A stretch of DNA of 36,645 nucleotides. It comes from a virus. The stretch lies in IMG/VR virus record IMGVR_UViG_3300006310_000998, positions 1-36,645 of that record; one strand, 5' to 3'. Below are positions 18,370 through 27,718 of the stretch, one piece after another; position 1 is the stretch's first letter, and every line of letters starts with the position of its first letter. The translations under genes and the position numbers were made by a program. The notes below the pieces were generated by a model. That model was not told the origin of the DNA, searched no databases, and saw only the letters and a program-made list of their open reading frames with translations.

Positions 18370-19899
18370 ATGAGTGAAAAACATTATGTTGTTTCTTTAC
18401 ACAAAGGCTTCAACAAAGAAGAGGTCATTAACGCTCTTAATCGAGATACTACATTAGACGCTACTGTTAATAGTGATATAATTCCTGATAGACAAGTACA
18501 AAACGTAAACACTAGACCTTCTAGTAAACGTATTTTTGAAATAGCCCTTACAGACGAAGAAGCAATAAAACTTAAAAACGATCCTAGAGTTGGAGATGTT
18601 AATATTCCACTAGTATGGAGTGATGACTGGTTAGACTATACACAACCAGCTCCTGAAGGTGGGAATGGTTGGATGAGAAACTCTACTTCAACAACAAGAG
18701 GCAATTGGGGATTATTAAGACAAAGTAATACAGCAAGTGCTTGGGGATTAAATGTTGGTAGTGATCTTACAGCTGGTACAACTTATGATTATCATTTAGA
18801 TGGTACTGGTGTTGATTATGTTCATCAAGAAGGTAATTTTAGATATACACACGAACAATGGCAAGATAGAAACGGTACTAGTCGTTTAGTTGAGCTCCAA
18901 TGGAATACACTTCCTAATATGGGAGGTCTTCCAGTTCAAGATTATTCTGATGCTTCTTCAAGTTATCATGCAACCCATTGTTGTGGGACGGCTGTAGGAA
19001 AAGATTATGGCTGGGCTAAAAACTCTGCCATTTATTGTTTGGATACTGGTTTAGTAAGTCAAGATGCTTGGTTTGATGCAATTAAAGAATTTCATAAAGC
19101 TAAAACTGTTGATCCTGTTACAGGATTTAAGAGACCAACAGTAGTTGGAGCAAGTTGGGGTTATAAAGCATACTTTACTAGCATAACAGATATTCTATTT
19201 AGAGGTGTTAGTCAAGGAAGTGTTAAAAGTGCTGACTACGGAATGATTGGTGATGCTATTAGTAGATTTAATGCAAATCTTTATCAACTTAATGTTGAAG
19301 TTGAAGAAATGCAAGACGAAGGTATACATTATATTAAGAGTGCAGGCAATCAATATCAAAAACTTTGCTATGACGGAGATATAGATTATGACAATTATAT
19401 TACAAGAAGTATTGCTACAGGACCAATAGCGGCAGGCAACCCTGTATATTACAACAGAGGTGCAGGCAATATAGGACCTGACACTATTGTAGTTGGTAAC
19501 TTAGATAGTGCGTTATATAATAATGCTGAAGCGACGGCAACAGATAGTGATAAAGGTCCTAGAGTTGATATATGGGCGGCAGGTACAAATATTATGAGTG
19601 CTGATAACGTTAACGATACAAGCGTATTAAACCTTAGCGGAACATCAATGGCTACACCACAAGTTTCTGGAATGAGTTGTTTAATACTACAATTAAATCC
19701 AGGGTGGTCACCTGCACAATTACGCAAGTGGTGGCAAGATAATGCAGTTCTAAATTTAATGAATCAAGGATCAACAGATGAAGGAACACCTTCTACCTTT
19801 TTTGCAAATAACAGAAGTTTATTTAATGGTACTAATAGAATAGCTTATTTTCCATATGCCATTGATAAAGCATTAACAACAACTGTAGGGATATCTTAA
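18370..19899 (+). CDS. Subtilisin-like protein with altered catalytic Asp, likely structural
   Basis: The 509-residue protein has an N-terminal region of about 80 residues resembling an inhibitor I9-like prodomain (HYVVSLHKGF...FEIALTDEEAIKL). An S8 fold follows. The Ser motif is intact (SGTSMATPQVSG), the oxyanion Asn is present in SAGNQ, and the His motif is HATHCCG instead of HGTHVAG. Where the next paralogue has VIQDDGV, this protein has VHQEGN, so the catalytic Asp position reads Glu154. It may be inactive or weakly active. There is no signal peptide, so a virion or intracellular location is more likely than secretion. AGGAG precedes the ATG, and the stop overlaps the next start (TAATG), giving tight coupling to the paralogue. 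Confidence 0.8.
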   Translation: MSEKHYVVSLHKGFNKEEVINALNRDTTLDATVNSDIIPDRQVQNVNTRPSSKRIFEIALTDEEAIKLKNDPRVGDVNIPLVWSDDWLDYTQPAPEGGNGWMRNSTSTTRGNWGLLRQSNTASAWGLNVGSDLTAGTTYDYHLDGTGVDYVHQEGNFRYTHEQWQDRNGTSRLVELQWNTLPNMGGLPVQDYSDASSSYHATHCCGTAVGKDYGWAKNSAIYCLDTGLVSQDAWFDAIKEFHKAKTVDPVTGFKRPTVVGASWGYKAYFTSITDILFRGVSQGSVKSADYGMIGDAISRFNANLYQLNVEVEEMQDEGIHYIKSAGNQYQKLCYDGDIDYDNYITRSIATGPIAAGNPVYYNRGAGNIGPDTIVVGNLDSALYNNAEATATDSDKGPRVDIWAAGTNIMSADNVNDTSVLNLSGTSMATPQVSGMSCLILQLNPGWSPAQLRKWWQDNAVLNLMNQGSTDEGTPSTFFANNRSLFNGTNRIAYFPYAIDKALTTTVGIS

Positions 19900-21524
19900 T
19901 GGCTGATGAAAAAGAATATCTAGTTATTAGTAAAAAAGGTATTGACATTGCCGAAATAGAACACGACTTAGAAAGAGATACTTCTACTGACGATTCTGTT
20001 AGTACGAATGTTCCAACTAGAACTGTTGATGTAGTTTATGCTAAAAAAGCCAATGACAGAATTACTCACTATCTGTTAAATGATGCTGAAGCGGCAGAGT
20101 TATCAAAAGATTCAAGAATACACGCGGTACAGACTAAACCTCACCCAGACGCGGCACAAAAATATGAAACACAAACTGGTCAATTTGATAGATCAACTAC
20201 TAACGGCCAAGATGCAGTTAATTGGGGATTAAAAAGACACATTCTCGCAGAATACGATTCTGCGGCGGCGTCTAATACATATACAGGAGATTATACTTAT
20301 TCGTTAGATGGTACAGGTGTTGACGTTGTTATACAAGACGATGGTGTTGATCCTACAGGACATCCTGAATGGGAAGATGCAAATGGTCAAACAAGATTTG
20401 AACAATTCGACTGGAATACAATTATTGAAGGCTCGATGCCAGCAACCCATTATACTAATCAATCTTCAGAAGATAACGCAGGAGAACACGGAAGTCACGT
20501 TGCAGGTATTGTCGCAGGCAAAACTTACGGCTGGGCTAAAAATGCAAAAATTTATTCAGTAAGAAAATTTGGCGGGACCTCCGGTATGAATGAAGATGAC
20601 ATCTGGGATTGTATAAGACTTTGGCATAACGCTAAAACTGTTGATGCTAACACAGGATTTAAACGTCCTACAATTGTAAATCAAAGTTGGGGCTATAGTT
20701 GGTATTATAGTAACGCTAGTTTTGCCGACATACAAACTCTTTTTTACAAAGGTGTAGATCAAAGTATTGCAGTACAAGAATGGAGTAGTGCTAACTTCTT
20801 AGCATTTGGTTGTCCTAACAATAGACATCCAATGGTATATACAGCGGCAGATGTTGAACAAGAACAGTTAACAGATGCAGGAGTAATTTGTTGCAGAGCC
20901 GCAGGTAATGGATACCATCCTAGTGCAGGTGAAAATGCTCCATACTATAGTGGAATTTATGACAGCTACTATACAATGAATGAAACATGGGGTACAGTAG
21001 TTCCGGCTGGTCAGCCTATATATTATAATCGACCTAGTTCACCACATAGCGAAGATAGTATTTTTGTAGCAAACTTAGAACAGGGCTTATTTGGTACTGA
21101 AGAATATATAAGACAAGATAGTGAACGTGGACCACGAATTGATATAATAGCGGGCGGCGATGATATTACAAGTGCTACAAGTCAAGTAAGCGGCTATAGT
21201 TCAAAGCAATTATATCCGGGAAGTGCAACTCACTATATTGCACGAATAGGTGGCACATCAATGGCATCTCCACAAATTTGTGGAATAGGTGCATTATGGT
21301 TACAAATGAATCCAGGTGGAACGGCGCAACAATTTAAAGATTTCCTTTATAAAACTGGAAAATCTGGTTCATATGATACTGGAACAGCTGAAGATTTTAA
21401 TGCTTCTAACGCCATTCCAAGACGATATGGAGCACCAGATAGAATATTACATTGGCCATATTCTAGTCCTACCCCATGGGGTTGGAAAGGTAGTAGTGGA
21501 AGTAGTACTGCTGGAATAGAATAA
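19899..21524 (+). CDS. Subtilisin-like serine protease (S8), likely virion associated
   Basis: The 541-residue protein is a paralogue of the preceding one but keeps a complete catalytic set: Asp147 in GVDVVIQDDGV, His197 in EHGSHVAG, oxyanion Asn in AAGNGYH and Ser in GGTSMASPQICG. The first 80 residues again look like an I9-type prodomain (EYLVISKKGI...HYLLNDAEAAEL). The C-terminus ends in a Gly/Ser-rich tail (GWKGSSGSSTAG). Subtilases cleave proteins with broad specificity. Without a secretion signal and inside a fibre gene block, it could mature fibres or digest host surface protein during entry; both are inference. Confidence 0.85.
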   Translation: MADEKEYLVISKKGIDIAEIEHDLERDTSTDDSVSTNVPTRTVDVVYAKKANDRITHYLLNDAEAAELSKDSRIHAVQTKPHPDAAQKYETQTGQFDRSTTNGQDAVNWGLKRHILAEYDSAAASNTYTGDYTYSLDGTGVDVVIQDDGVDPTGHPEWEDANGQTRFEQFDWNTIIEGSMPATHYTNQSSEDNAGEHGSHVAGIVAGKTYGWAKNAKIYSVRKFGGTSGMNEDDIWDCIRLWHNAKTVDANTGFKRPTIVNQSWGYSWYYSNASFADIQTLFYKGVDQSIAVQEWSSANFLAFGCPNNRHPMVYTAADVEQEQLTDAGVICCRAAGNGYHPSAGENAPYYSGIYDSYYTMNETWGTVVPAGQPIYYNRPSSPHSEDSIFVANLEQGLFGTEEYIRQDSERGPRIDIIAGGDDITSATSQVSGYSSKQLYPGSATHYIARIGGTSMASPQICGIGALWLQMNPGGTAQQFKDFLYKTGKSGSYDTGTAEDFNASNAIPRRYGAPDRILHWPYSSPTPWGWKGSSGSSTAGIE

Positions 21525-21545: not shown

Positions 21546-22250
21546 ATGGCATTACAGAATATTAACATAGGAACACTAGCAAACGACGGCACAGGTGATG
21601 ATCTACGTGAAGCGTTTATTAAAGTTAATCAAAACTTTGAGGATTTAGATCTACGATCTCCGGAATCAACTACTGCAAGTAATTTAGGCAACGTTGGTGA
21701 AGGAGTTTTTTACCAAAAAGCTGGTTCTGATTTACAATTTAAAAAATTAGTATCTGGGGCTAATGTTACATTAACAGCTTCAACTAATGGAATTACAGTT
21801 AATGCCTTAGGCGGATTACAACAACTAAATGTTGTATCTGATTCCGGATCTAAGCAGTTAGTTGACGGTGATACATTAAATATATTTGGAGGAACAGGTG
21901 CTGATACAAGTATTAGTGGTAATGTTCTAACAGTTAATACAACTACTGAACTGTCAACTGATATTACTCCAGTATTAGGTGGAAATTTAGATGCAAACGG
22001 AAACAATCTTATTAATGGCGGCACATTAACAGCAAGTACTTTTCAAGGTACTTTTCAAGGAGATTTAGCTGGATTAGTACACGGAATAGACATTAGATTA
22101 ATTGCTCCTAATACAGCTGGTTTTAACTTTGGTTCATTTAATTTAGTAGTAACAAGTGTTATTGATTGGTTAATTGCAATTTCTGAAATAGACTTTGGTA
22201 GTTTCTTTGTGCCAGACGAAAAAGATTTTGATGCAGGAACAATAACGTAA
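21546..22250 (+). CDS. Short tail-fibre-like structural protein
   Basis: The 234-residue protein opens with QNINIGTLANDGTGDDLREAF.KVNQNFEDL, the same module found at the start of the 3021- and 1117-residue fibres. A short beta-rich shaft follows, with SGANVTLTASTNGITV, TELSTDITPVLGGNLDANGN and TLTASTFQGTFQGDLAG. The last 60 residues (GFNFGSFNLVVTSVIDWLIAISEIDFGSFFVPD) match a conserved C-terminal stretch of marine T4-like phage structural proteins as far as I recall. It probably sits at the baseplate or fibre base. A late promoter motif lies just upstream, and the YHYH gene follows 10 bases later. Confidence 0.7.
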   Translation: MALQNINIGTLANDGTGDDLREAFIKVNQNFEDLDLRSPESTTASNLGNVGEGVFYQKAGSDLQFKKLVSGANVTLTASTNGITVNALGGLQQLNVVSDSGSKQLVDGDTLNIFGGTGADTSISGNVLTVNTTTELSTDITPVLGGNLDANGNNLINGGTLTASTFQGTFQGDLAGLVHGIDIRLIAPNTAGFNFGSFNLVVTSVIDWLIAISEIDFGSFFVPDEKDFDAGTIT

Positions 22251-22260
22251 GGAAATAGAT

Positions 22261-23139
22261 ATGGCTACATTAACAATTACATCAAATGGTTTACCTAATC
22301 CGGCGGCGTTTGGAAATGCGTTCGGAAATAATGATTTTACACCAAACGTAAATACTGCAACTGCACAATCTTATAATTATTCTATTATATATCGTGGAGG
22401 CGAAAATACTATTAATGCACAGGTAACAATTCCTTTAACACCAATAGGAATTATGTCTAATGGTGTTGTATTTTTTAATCCTTCAGTAGGTCCTACAACT
22501 GTTCCACCAGGACTAGATCCAGTTACAGATGCACCTGGTGATGGTTTTGAATATAATGCAGTACAATTTAGAACAAACTTTGGTGGTGACGACGCAGGTG
22601 GTTGGCCAGAAATTAACGGACAATATCATTATATGTCTGGAATGTTTATGTTTCTTCCAACAGGCTCAGCAGAAACGGGAGCATCATGGGGTGCTACAAT
22701 GCTAACAAATTCAACCCCAACACCAACTTATTACACAGGAACTAATTACAATAGTGATCAGTTTAGACATCCAGATGGTCACAGTAAGATACTTGGATAT
22801 TGTTTCGATGGATATCCTATTTACGGACCTTATTCATATACAGATGCTAATGCAGAATTAGGAACCGCAGTTACTAGAATGACTTCATCATACCAATACT
22901 ACACAACAGAACCTTCAGGACGTGGTTACACTTACGGTGAAAAATCTGCTGGTACATTTATTAATGATCATGAATACCAAGTAGGTACTGGTCACTTAGA
23001 TGTATACAACGGTAGATATAATAAAACTCCTGATTATCCAAACGGCACATGGGCATATTACTTAACAGTAGATTCAAACCTCCAACCTGTTTATCCGTAC
23101 GTAGTTGGTAACTCAACTAAACAACAACGAAGCGTTTAA
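22261..23139 (+). CDS. YHYH domain structural protein
   Basis: The 292-residue protein has the hallmarks of the YHYH family: QYHYM at residues 121-125 (the fourth motif residue is Met, not His) and CFDGYPIYGPY at 181-191. A His-containing HPDGHSKILGY stretch leads into the second motif. The family is found in marine bacteria and phages with no settled biochemical role; in phages it is usually near tail or fibre genes. No signal peptide is seen. AAGGAAA precedes the ATG, and the gene is likely cotranscribed with the short fibre gene. The SbmA/BacA-like gene follows after 12 bases. Confidence 0.75.
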   Translation: MATLTITSNGLPNPAAFGNAFGNNDFTPNVNTATAQSYNYSIIYRGGENTINAQVTIPLTPIGIMSNGVVFFNPSVGPTTVPPGLDPVTDAPGDGFEYNAVQFRTNFGGDDAGGWPEINGQYHYMSGMFMFLPTGSAETGASWGATMLTNSTPTPTYYTGTNYNSDQFRHPDGHSKILGYCFDGYPIYGPYSYTDANAELGTAVTRMTSSYQYYTTEPSGRGYTYGEKSAGTFINDHEYQVGTGHLDVYNGRYNKTPDYPNGTWAYYLTVDSNLQPVYPYVVGNSTKQQRSV

Positions 23140-23151
23140 CGTTTTAAAATA

Positions 23152-24177
23152 ATGATAGGCGCTTTTTACAAAAGTCGAAAATGGGCTTTGTGGGCGTGGG
23201 GCGGTGGTTCCATATTAGCAATATCATTATGGATTCAAGTACAGATTACCGTTGGTATCAATAAATGGTACGGCGGCTTTTATAACTTATTACAAACAGC
23301 TGGCGAATATAAAGATAAAGCTGACATAGGTACAGCATTATTCTACGACAAATTAGTAAGCATCGCTTACTTAAAGGACGGCTTTGAAGGAGAACCTTCA
23401 TTCGCTGTACTGGCATTTCCGTATGTAATACTCGCAGTTGCTACAGGATGGTTTACCCGTTTATACGGATTGCGTTGGCGTGAAGCAATTACATTTGATT
23501 ACATTCCACGATGGCGTAATGTTAAAACTGAAATAGAAGGTGCTAGTCAGCGTATTCAAGAAGACTGTAATAGATTTGCTCGTATTGTTGAAAATTTAGG
23601 ATTACAAGTTGTACGAGCTCTAATGACGTTAGTAGCTTTTATTCCTGTATTATGGGCATTAAGTGATGCAGTTACAATTCCATTCTTTAGCGATATTGAA
23701 GGTTCGTTAGTATGGACAGCTCTAGTTGTATCATTAGGCGGCATTGTTATTTCATGGTTTGTTGGTTGGAAACTTCCAGGACTAGAATATAATAATCAAA
23801 AAGTAGAAGCCGCATTTAGAAAGGATTTAGTATTAGGTGAAGACGATAAAGCCAATTACGCACAACCGGAAACGTTATGGAGTCTATTCACTGGTATACG
23901 CTTTAACTATCACAGACTTTATATGCATTATGGCTACTTTGACACTTGGCGTATTACTTACGATCAATTTATGATTATTGTACCATACTTAATTGTTGGC
24001 CCTAGTTTATTTACAGGTGCTGTACTATTAGGTGTAGTGGTACAAGTATCAAATGCTTTCCAGAAGGTTCATGGAGGCTTTGCTTTATTCTTAGAAAACT
24101 GGACCACAATCACAGAGCTTCGCAGTATATGGAAGCGTCTACATGAGTTCGAACGTAACTTGACCAAGTATGCATAA
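23152..24177 (+). CDS. SbmA/BacA-like peptide transporter, N-terminally short
   Basis: The 341-residue membrane protein aligns from memory with E. coli SbmA and rhizobial BacA over nearly its whole length: YGGFYNLLQTA (40-50), IEGASQRIQED (128-138), KLPGLEYNNQKVEAAFRKDL (207-226), GEDD (229-232), FTGIRFNYHRLYMHYGYF (246-263) and WTTITELRSIWKRLHEFE (317-334). SbmA/BacA proteins are dimeric proton-driven inner-membrane importers of peptides and related compounds such as microcins, bleomycin and PR-rich peptides. The known proteins are about 400-420 residues; here the N-terminal 60-70 residues and first membrane segments are absent. The ribosome-binding site is weak. Lying among tail genes suggests late expression. 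Phage carriage is unusual in my knowledge. Confidence 0.85.
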   Translation: MIGAFYKSRKWALWAWGGGSILAISLWIQVQITVGINKWYGGFYNLLQTAGEYKDKADIGTALFYDKLVSIAYLKDGFEGEPSFAVLAFPYVILAVATGWFTRLYGLRWREAITFDYIPRWRNVKTEIEGASQRIQEDCNRFARIVENLGLQVVRALMTLVAFIPVLWALSDAVTIPFFSDIEGSLVWTALVVSLGGIVISWFVGWKLPGLEYNNQKVEAAFRKDLVLGEDDKANYAQPETLWSLFTGIRFNYHRLYMHYGYFDTWRITYDQFMIIVPYLIVGPSLFTGAVLLGVVVQVSNAFQKVHGGFALFLENWTTITELRSIWKRLHEFERNLTKYA

Positions 24178-24214: not shown

Positions 24215-27200
24215 ATGGCAAATTTACCGGTTTGGACACAACTATCAGGGCACATACTAGCAAGTTTAGAGGAAAGAATAACTACTACAGTTAATCTACC
24301 TTTAGATCCATCTAGTGCTGACCTTGGACAATTATTCAACCCAGAATCAACCGCGTTAAGTAGCGATCCCTTACCTACACTAATAAATTCAACAGTCATA
24401 GATATAACTAAAACTTGGTCACAAGAACCAAGCGGCTATACATATCCTATATCTATTAGAATTCCTACTATTCCTGCTCTTACAGGTAAAAAAATACCAG
24501 TAGCTATATTACTACACGGAAGTGGCGGAATAGGTAGTAATGAAATTACTATATGGGAAAACTATTTAGGTGATCATATTTTAGTTGCTCCATCAGGATA
24601 TAATAATACATGGAATCTTGCAACTGAAACATCTAAAGCACCTGATATTGATATGCTCAAAGATTTAGTTACAGCATTAAAAGGATTTAATAATGTTGAT
24701 CAAAGCAAAATAAAATTTGTTGGGTTTGATACTGGTGCAGGAATGGTGAATAGAGCATTAATTGAAATTGACGACACAGATATTCATTCATATGTAACGA
24801 TTAGTACACAATTATTTGATCCACAATACCGTAACGATACATTTTTCTTTCCAACAACACAAACTGGTCCTAATGCTTCAGATTATAATACAGCTACAGT
24901 TCCATTACAAAATAAAAGAATGTTAACAATTCATGGAGAAAATGACAATGTTATTCCATACAATGGTGGTGTTGCTAATGGCGTAACATTTTTATCTGCT
25001 CAAGAATCTGCATTTGCTTTAGCAAAAAGTCAAGGATACACAGGTGGTATAATTCCAGATGCAGGTGGTGTATTCTACGGAACAAATAATACTTACTATT
25101 ATAGCTACTTAGGTGGACGAGTAACACATTATAAAACTGGAACAGGACATACATTAGAAACATTTATGCAAGAAATTGTTCAAGCATTTATGACGTATGT
25201 AGTAACTACTGCACCTGCTATCTTTTTAGAAGCAGGCTCTATTACAACTATTGCACTTAATACAAGTATTGTAAGTTTAATAAGTGGACAATTACCTCCA
25301 GGATTAAGATTAGAAGAAAATCAAATTATAGGAACACCATTTGAAGTCCAACGTAGCACTACATTTGAATTTGTATTACGAGCTACAAACTCTGCCGGAA
25401 TTGCTGATAGAACATATAATATTATTATAAATGGTCCTGATGAACCTGTTTGGACAACTAATGAAGGTAAACTTCCACTAGGACCTAATAATTCTTTTTA
25501 TATTATAGATAGCAGTATTGTTGACTTTCAACTACAAGCAATTGATCCAGATTTACCAGCAGGTGACGAACTTGAATATTTTATTGCTGATGGAGATGGC
25601 ACATTACCTCCAGGTATAAAACTAACTGAAGAAGGAAGACTTATAGGAATAGTTGATCCTATTTTAGCATTAGATTTAAGATCTGGTAGTGGCTTTTATG
25701 ATACTACACAATTTGATAGTTTTCCATTCGACTTTGGATTAAGAAGTGCTAATGGTTATGAAAGTTTCTTTTATGATACTACAGGATATGATAAATCTAT
25801 TCCAACACAAAGTCCAAAGAAACTTAACAGATTCTTTGAATTTAGAGTAAGTGTTAGTGATGGTGATACAATTGTAAAAAGAAAATTTATAATATTCCTA
25901 GTTGGTGACGATTTCTTACGTGCAGATAATACAATTATGCAAGTTGGTACAGGAATCTTTACAGCTGATAATACATTCCTTAGAACTCCTGTTTGGTTAA
26001 CTCCTGCTAACATAGGATATAAACGAGCAAACAATTATGTAACAATTTACTTAGATGTATTTGATCCTAATACTATTGTTGGAGAACTAGGATATTATTT
26101 AGAACAATATAATGACGATGAAAGTCCTAGTGTGTTACCTCCAGGAATGGCATTAGATGTTAGTACTGGAGAAATTGCAGGACGAGTTCCATATCAACCA
26201 GCAGTTACCAAAGAATATAAATTTACAGTCGAAGCAAGACGCTTTACTAGTCAAGCAACATTATTAACGGCAAAGCAAAAAACATTTACAGTTAAAATAC
26301 TAGGTGAAGTTGAAAGTTCTATTGTATGGGTAACTATGCCAGACCTAGGAACTATTAAAGCAAACTTTATTAGTACATTTAGCGTAGGGGCAAAAATAAT
26401 TGCTCAATCAATTACTAGTAAAGTATTATATAGAATTCTTGGTGGAGAACTACCTCCAGGATTAAAATTAAATCCAAATGGAGAAATTGTTGGTAAAGTA
26501 AATCAGTTTAGAAGCCAAAATGCTGTTTCAGGTGAATGGACTAAAGGTTTAACAACTATTGATAATAATTTACTATTGCTTGATGGTTCTACAACTACTA
26601 TTGATCGAAAATTTATATTTGAAGTTGAAGCACGAGACCGTTTTGGATTTAGCGTGTTATCACAGAACTATAATATTATAGTTACTGATCCGGACAATAT
26701 AAGTTACAGTAACTTATCTGTTAAACCTTTCTTAAAACCAGAACAGCGTACAGTTTATAATAACTTTATCGGAGATCCTAATATTTTTACTCCAGCTAAA
26801 ATTTATAGACCTAATGATCCAGCATTTGGTTTACAAAAAGAAATTAAAATGCTAATTTATGCAGGAATTGAAACTAAAGAAGTTAGAGAATATGTTGCAG
26901 TATCAAGAAAGAATCATTCTAGAAAACGATTTAAATTAGGTTCAATTAAAACGGCAGTAGCTAAAAAAGCCGGAACAAATGATATTCAATATGAAGTTGT
27001 TTACTTAGAAGTAATTGACCCATATGATTCAACAACAGACACAAAAGTTAAGTCTGCTTTAAGTATTAAAACTAGACAAGAAATTACTGTAGATAGTGTT
27101 GACTATGAAGCATTCGATGATATTACTAAAGAAGGGGCCGGTATTGCAATATTTGAAATAGAAAATTCATTAGGACAAAAAATTCAAGTAGTAGCATTTG

Positions 27201-27718
27201 GAAACGATCTTGAAATTATTACTAGAAATAATGGAACAGTAATTCTTGATGCTAATGGAACTATATTTGTACAATTACAGAATGGAAATATTATACAAGC
27301 TGGAAAGATTGCTACAACAACAAGTGATCCATTTAGATTTAGACCTAGATTTACTCCAGTTAAAACTGATAGTAATGCTATAAGAATTAGTGAAGCACTT
27401 AATACTGAACGCTATATTACCAATGTAACAAATATGCGTGAAAATGTAAAAACAGTTGGACTTACTGAACGTGATTTCTTACCATTATGGATGACTACAG
27501 CTCAAGGTACTTCAGTTCAAGAATTAGGCTTTGTAACAGCTATTCCATTATGTTTTTGTAATCCCGGAGAAAGTGCCACTATAGCATTAAATATTGCTAA
27601 TAGTACCTTTGATTTTAGAATATTGGACTTTGAAATTGACAGATATATAATAGATGCAACCGAAGGAAATAGCTATGAGCAGTATATACCTTTCGGGAAC
27701 TATGCCTTTAATGTTTAA
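24215..27718 (+). CDS. Ig-like (He_PIG) structural protein with inserted alpha/beta-hydrolase domain
   Basis: The 1167-residue protein starts ANLPVWTQLSGHILASLEERI, a start I associate with marine phage structural proteins, and continues after residue 335 with repeated putative-Ig domains carrying LPPGLRL..NQIIGTP, LPPGIKL..GRLIG, LPPGMALDVSTGEIAG and LPPGLKLNPNGEIVG. Between them, residues about 60-330 form a hydrolase of the PHB-depolymerase/esterase type: oxyanion motif LLHGSGG (H101), nucleophile elbow VGFDTGAGM (Asp172 where Ser is usual), acid D244 in HGENDNVIPY and H312 in GTGHTLE. The C-terminal 300 residues lack obvious motifs and end in a segment with CFCNPGES. Likely a tail or baseplate protein whose inserted domain acts on the host surface. 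Confidence 0.75.
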   Translation: MANLPVWTQLSGHILASLEERITTTVNLPLDPSSADLGQLFNPESTALSSDPLPTLINSTVIDITKTWSQEPSGYTYPISIRIPTIPALTGKKIPVAILLHGSGGIGSNEITIWENYLGDHILVAPSGYNNTWNLATETSKAPDIDMLKDLVTALKGFNNVDQSKIKFVGFDTGAGMVNRALIEIDDTDIHSYVTISTQLFDPQYRNDTFFFPTTQTGPNASDYNTATVPLQNKRMLTIHGENDNVIPYNGGVANGVTFLSAQESAFALAKSQGYTGGIIPDAGGVFYGTNNTYYYSYLGGRVTHYKTGTGHTLETFMQEIVQAFMTYVVTTAPAIFLEAGSITTIALNTSIVSLISGQLPPGLRLEENQIIGTPFEVQRSTTFEFVLRATNSAGIADRTYNIIINGPDEPVWTTNEGKLPLGPNNSFYIIDSSIVDFQLQAIDPDLPAGDELEYFIADGDGTLPPGIKLTEEGRLIGIVDPILALDLRSGSGFYDTTQFDSFPFDFGLRSANGYESFFYDTTGYDKSIPTQSPKKLNRFFEFRVSVSDGDTIVKRKFIIFLVGDDFLRADNTIMQVGTGIFTADNTFLRTPVWLTPANIGYKRANNYVTIYLDVFDPNTIVGELGYYLEQYNDDESPSVLPPGMALDVSTGEIAGRVPYQPAVTKEYKFTVEARRFTSQATLLTAKQKTFTVKILGEVESSIVWVTMPDLGTIKANFISTFSVGAKIIAQSITSKVLYRILGGELPPGLKLNPNGEIVGKVNQFRSQNAVSGEWTKGLTTIDNNLLLLDGSTTTIDRKFIFEVEARDRFGFSVLSQNYNIIVTDPDNISYSNLSVKPFLKPEQRTVYNNFIGDPNIFTPAKIYRPNDPAFGLQKEIKMLIYAGIETKEVREYVAVSRKNHSRKRFKLGSIKTAVAKKAGTNDIQYEVVYLEVIDPYDSTTDTKVKSALSIKTRQEITVDSVDYEAFDDITKEGAGIAIFEIENSLGQKIQVVAFGNDLEIITRNNGTVILDANGTIFVQLQNGNIIQAGKIATTTSDPFRFRPRFTPVKTDSNAIRISEALNTERYITNVTNMRENVKTVGLTERDFLPLWMTTAQGTSVQELGFVTAIPLCFCNPGESATIALNIANSTFDFRILDFEIDRYIIDATEGNSYEQYIPFGNYAFNV

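Follow-up and report, generated by a model that had tools for sequence, protein, structure and literature searches.

Which function can be ascribed to an alpha/beta-hydrolase domain that carries aspartate at the nucleophile position of its elbow and sits within a probable structural protein of a phage? The question is raised by the window analysed here, the whole of a 36,645 nt stretch of viral DNA (IMG/VR record IMGVR_UViG_3300006310_000998, positions 1 to 36,645), in which one long open reading frame contains such a domain. The features of this reading frame are as follows, with aa denoting residues of its translation.

24215..27718, + strand: open reading frame of a probable tail/virion protein, 1167 aa, laid out as a split Ig repeat, the inserted hydrolase domain, He_PIG-type Ig repeats (Pfam He_PIG, E 2.8e-15) and a conserved C-terminal part
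24215..24307, + strand: first part of Ig repeat 1, aa 1-31, aligning with residues 1-30 of insert-less relatives
24368..25204, + strand: inserted alpha/beta-hydrolase domain, aa 52-330, of the phrog_2576 C-terminal type
24515..24529, + strand: HGSGG oxyanion-loop motif, aa 101-105
24728..24733, + strand: Asp172-Thr173 (GAT ACT), replacing the Ser-Asn (AGT AAT) of relatives
24944..24946, + strand: Asp244, the triad acid, retained in the alignment
25148..25150, + strand: His312, the triad base, retained in the alignment
25253..25450, + strand: Ig repeat 1 resumes, aa 347-412 (LISGQLPPGLRL...), aligning with residues 38-103 of the relative L130

The elbow motif VGFDTGAGM occupies aa 169-177, with the codon of Asp172 at 24728-24730. 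A preliminary description of this DNA had placed HGSGG, VGFDTGAGM, Asp172, D244 and H312 within the protein, and all of these positions are exact in the translated reading frame.

Fold and insertion of the hydrolase domain

The domain matches the C-terminal half of the phrog_2576 profile (E 4.3e-60, aa 55-326 against profile positions 299-579 of 587), and 65 cyanophage records match it at approximately 35% identity over more than 80% of its length; the family to which it belongs is one of marine phages and bacteria. Pfam gave no meaningful match for the domain alone and recognised only the He_PIG Ig repeats in the whole protein, while the NCBIfam model NF050058 (extracellular PHA depolymerase type 1) scored 26.6 bits, below its curated cut-off of 150. 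A phmmer search against solved chains led to the fungal esterase PDB 9j07, in which the elbow Ser is aligned to Asp172 and the catalytic Asp and His are in register with Asp244 and His312. The AlphaFold2 prediction, for which the preliminary description had called, yields an alpha/beta-hydrolase fold with pLDDT mostly above 90 in aa 61-330, and a strand (161-171) followed by a helix (173-184) forms a normal nucleophile elbow at residue 172. Among the matches listed, the nearest solved fold to this model is again 9j07 (AoAXEB; Z 25.3, rmsd 2.9 A, 248 residues), and the top structural matches are all serine ester hydrolases. The earlier characterisation as a protein of PHB-depolymerase/feruloyl-esterase type, with Asp at the elbow and the acid and His in place, is thus borne out by profile, alignment and fold. 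The alignment with a solved esterase (Ser-Asp-His) and the strand/helix elbow of the model lead one to expect that D172, D244 and H312 cluster.

The preliminary description had further suggested that the domain interrupts the first Ig-like repeat, and relatives of the Ig part that lack a hydrolase (L110-L114, L117-L123, L125, L127, L130, L132 and L134) indeed display an empty site. Inserted and insert-less proteins were compared by piecewise local alignments scored against shuffled sequences. Residues 1-30 of the window protein correspond to residues 1-30 of the insert-less relatives, and aa 353 onward to their residue 38 onward; the second match lies far above the shuffled scores in all comparisons and the first in most. 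For L130 the first Ig part scores 75 and the resumed part (aa 347-412) 215, against a shuffled maximum of 43 in both cases. Since the insert-less relatives match both flanks, the hydrolase is an insert, approximately 320 residues long, that occupies the loop following strand one of Ig repeat 1. A strand resembling the one before the insert recurs after it (EAGSITTIALNT, about aa 340-351, where the AlphaFold2 model is poor), and the Ig fold may therefore be completed from one side of the insert.

Elsewhere the hydrolase takes other places: it is N-terminal before YHYH and Ig in L053-L061, follows YHYH in cyanophages and follows a subtilase in L015 and L078, while in L124 YHYH alone precedes the Ig part. 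The hydrolase is a module exchanged among structural proteins. Other inserts near the second Ig repeat were observed in the Ig-protein relatives L130, L133, L134 and L135, so several loops seem to accept modules.

The elbow residue and the gene neighbourhood in relatives

Among 114 homologous phage-locus ORFs, near-copies included, the elbow is readable in 113 (unreadable in one) and holds Ser in 83, Asp in 19, Gly in six and Asn in five. Ser is also found in all four isolate cyanophages read and in 46 of the 46 bacterial-genome loci with a readable elbow. These bacterial loci belong mostly to marine Bacteroidota, and most of them carry an N-terminal hydrophobic signal-like stretch, several also a T9SS sorting tail. 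The C-terminal half of phrog_2576, which is listed without function, can be identified as a module resembling acetyl-xylan/feruloyl esterases, whose bacterial kin are probably secreted. One locus counted among the bacterial genomes, L137, is filed as a Candidatus Neomarinimicrobiota MAG and combines a hydrolase-YHYH-Ig protein with gp10-like and subtilase genes; its hydrolase is nearly identical to that of the viral contig L053, and it is probably viral DNA that was binned with the MAG.

Once duplicates are removed, three distinct Asp sequences are left (nine IMG/VR contigs and the window), which are 81-87% identical to one another, along with two Gly sequences (L011 and the L099 group) and one Asn clade (L101-L104 and L115). 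In a hydrolase tree of 96 sequences, built with the elbow column left out, non-Ser elbows are confined to the phage clade fused to Ig; from the starred branches it follows that Ser was abandoned three times at the least. A single Asp clade is neither shown nor rejected (AU p 0.41). L008, which is 83% identical to the window and has Ser172 but Ala173, groups inseparably with the Asp sequences and yet has Ser, so a reversion or a mixed state is possible. At codons 172-173 relatives read AGT AAT, the window GAT ACT, L008 AGT GCT and L011 GGC CTC. Two steps separate Ser from Asp at codon 172; they may pass through either Gly or Asn, and each of these residues occurs in relatives.

The prevalence of Ser in phage and bacterial loci, and its presence in a homologue as close as L008, argue against the new class of virion enzyme with an Asp nucleophile that the preliminary description had considered. 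In such an enzyme Asp172 would be a working covalent nucleophile, a serine esterase within a phage virion protein having newly acquired the chemistry of haloalkane dehalogenases or epoxide hydrolases. The exact elbow position of the Asp, its conservation in the three related sequences and the retention of acid and His agree with this idea, as does an engineered esterase that gained weak epoxide hydrolase activity through mutation and loop exchange (PMC3962183, PMC10138715). That precedent, however, depended on the exchanged loop, and its rate was 800-fold below that of the epoxide hydrolase used as template. The Asp occurs in just the nine contigs and the window, the elbow of close kin is occupied by Ser, Gly or Asn, the last two of which cannot act as Asp does, and a phage virion offers no obvious substrate. 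Moreover, the top sequence and fold matches among those listed are all serine esterases, and haloalkane dehalogenase and epoxide hydrolase families are absent from the Pfam, PDB-sequence and PDB-fold matches listed. A catalytic Asp nucleophile is considered quite unlikely; if true, it would represent a natural conversion of an esterase to an epoxide hydrolase in a recent lineage, with the Ser and Gly relatives as before-and-after forms.

Upstream of the reading frame lies a series of genes on the same strand:

18370..19899, + strand: second subtilase (S8) protein (PF00082, E 3.4e-20)
19899..21524, + strand: subtilase (S8) protein (PF00082, E 1.7e-24)
21546..22250, + strand: T4 gp9/gp10-N-like baseplate/fibre connector (PF07880, E 6e-5, below the gathering cut-off; phrog_677)
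22261..23139, + strand: YHYH-domain protein (PF14240, E 6e-32; N-terminal part of phrog_2576)
23152..24177, + strand: SbmA/BacA-type peptide transporter gene, directly upstream (PF05992, E 1.2e-115; NF009036, above cut-off)

Because no PHROG was assigned to the Ig part and no match for it was found in the named phages searched, the probable tail role and virion location of the 1167-residue protein are read from these neighbouring genes only. The YHYH protein has been predicted to be a tail-associated metal-dependent hydrolase (PMC7824862), and YHYH together with other host-recognition domains has been reported from the structural operons of pelagimyophages (PMC7029224). In cyanophages YHYH is fused to the Ser-type hydrolase, and in phage ACG-2014h a subtilase is fused to the hydrolase. 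The YHYH motif itself reads YHYM in the window (22261-23139, aa 122-125), and every Ig-hydrolase locus whose YHYH gene stands apart has either YHYM or YHYN; the motif is intact in most cyanophages and in most loci in which YHYH is fused to hydrolase and Ig. A pattern search of the adjacent subtilase genes recovered recognisable Asp, His and Ser motifs in 19899-21524 and the Ser motif only in 18370-19899. On the other side of the hydrolase, a 176-residue ORF at 28564-29094 matches only part of the NTPase domain of DNA polymerase III alpha (E 2.5e-10).

Among the loci compared, SbmA is limited to 12 contigs, the window being one of them, and each has an elbow of the kind seen in the Asp sequences, L008 or L011. 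In these SbmA-bearing loci residue 173 is changed from the usual Asn, and the altered groups L099 and L101 lack SbmA. The transporter gene, situated amid the phage's structural genes, is complete and conserved in the 12 contigs and is under strong purifying selection (omega 0.06-0.11); it has only four matches in named phage records and is perhaps host DNA. Its association with the altered elbow may go back to one event, and the hydrolase tree neither shows nor rejects one common SbmA clade (AU p 0.35). In the tree of the Ig backbone, Ser loci without SbmA (L087/L109) are interspersed with Asp loci, which makes an exchange of modules probable; unequal dS along the region, together with this tree, points the same way.

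Active-site state, selection and probable role

The Asp sequences retain H101, the His of the HGSGG motif that is invariant in the alignment of homologues, as well as D244 and H312. Of the 43-44 columns conserved among Ser sequences, 3-4 are altered in the Asp sequences, five in L011, six in L099 and 10-11 in the Asn clade; in Ser phage rows altered conserved columns average approximately 5%. The Asn clade is without His312, and its acid reads N or D, being ambiguous in the alignment. Nevertheless, the Asn form is predicted to keep the hydrolase fold (pLDDT 85.5; Z 22.3 to 9j07). The preservation of Asp244, His312 and most of the pocket would suit an Asp form that hydrolyses some activated ester by another route, for example through a water molecule activated by the His. 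Such residual catalysis appears unlikely, as the Gly and Asn sister branches suggest that the nucleophile is dispensable and the residue after the elbow has also changed from Asn.

Selection on the domain was compared by means of omega, which is 0.37-0.43 among the Asp sequences and 0.36-0.45 between these and L008. It is 0.07-0.26 for Ser-Ser pairs of comparable dS (11 pairs, dS 0.13-0.30), which are in part bacterial, and 0.14-0.20 for the Ig part next to the domain, measured in the Asp/L008 pairs; the pairs used throughout are non-independent. The domain of the Asp clade is constrained, but less so than that of Ser relatives at similar divergence. The roughly two- to threefold rise over Ser relatives would fit neutral decay, by which the hydrolase domain would be a leftover without a role. 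This is very improbable, considering that omega is well below 1, that the reading frames were found intact and that the fold persists even in sequences without the His.

The reading that we favour, at a probability of roughly two in three, is that of a structural module of esterase descent; its nucleophile has been lost on three or more occasions, and its retention is probably due to binding. The domain would derive from a Ser-Asp-His serine esterase like the acetyl xylan and feruloyl esterases and the extracellular PHA depolymerases, an ancestral activity that we infer from these relatives. Marine T4-like phages appear to use this esterase domain as an exchangeable module on structural proteins, beside YHYH and subtilase modules, and in the window lineage it occupies a loop of the first Ig domain. 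There Ser172 presumably changed to Asp (AGT AAT to GAT ACT), while the acid, the His and the greater part of the pocket remained. Because Ser172 is replaced by Asp, the acyl-serine route would be closed, and, judged from sequence, the Asp form has probably lost its activity. It would now most likely serve as a binding module that holds an acylated host surface ligand without cleaving it, both ligand and role being conjectural.

Homology and insertion of the domain, Ser in nearly all relatives, repeated departure from it and continued purifying selection form the ground on which this reading stands. Loss of the nucleophile on several occasions, with fold and frame kept, fits a switch from cleaving to holding a ligand and lends support to the other option of the preliminary description, a binding domain that lost its activity, as far as sequences and models can indicate. 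Several observations weigh against the binding module: the Asp clade has preserved both acid and His completely, as one would not expect of an old decay; L008 has Ser although it groups with the Asp sequences; the raised omega, which L008 shows too, may reflect host-driven adaptation instead of lost catalysis; and the Asp state is represented by three distinct sequences only. Phage structural proteins offer a series of versions of one esterase domain whose nucleophile position is filled by Ser, Asp, Gly or Asn, some pairs being more than 80% identical. With this series it can be tested at what point and for what reason an enzyme that cleaves a receptor is converted by phages into a domain that holds it.

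Comparison with known systems

Homologous hydrolase domains, at approximately 35-40% identity, occur in the phrog_2576/YHYH-hydrolase proteins of the Synechococcus phages S-SSM4, S-ShM2 and ACG-2014d. Their genes likewise adjoin baseplate/fibre genes, and the Asp and His are conserved as in the window; however, their elbow reads Ser-Asn-Gly, and the domain is fused to YHYH rather than inserted in an Ig protein. They are annotated as hypothetical in most records. The same fold is found in acetyl xylan esterase B of Aspergillus oryzae (9j07/9j08) and in related feruloyl esterases and PHB depolymerases (8jh8, 8daj), which share the order of elbow, acid and His and the HG oxyanion motif with the window domain. 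These proteins are only about 20% identical to it and are serine enzymes, whereas the window domain has Asp at the Ser position. Haloalkane dehalogenases and epoxide hydrolases have the elbow Asp, the His and acid and the general fold in common with it, but they do not occur among the best matches listed for it, and the Asp is not conserved across its family.

For pseudoenzyme tail modules of phages no precedent was found in the literature searched. In animals, the ectodomains of neuroligin, glutactin, gliotactin and neurotactin are alpha/beta-hydrolase folds without a functional triad that are used for adhesion (PMC5943944), although, unlike the window domain, they belong to the cholinesterase branch. 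Further examples are DPP6 (DPPX), with Asp in place of Ser, and DPP10, with Gly in its place; both are alpha/beta-hydrolases that are inactive and act in binding, and restoring Ser at those residues gave no activity (PMC4350108, PMC4873792). They are animal S9B proteins with no close sequence relation to the window domain, which lies in a phage structural module. As in the phage sequences, Ser is replaced by Asp or Gly while the elbow fold is kept, and by analogy DPP6 and DPP10 may be regarded as close functional parallels to the Asp and Gly phage domains.
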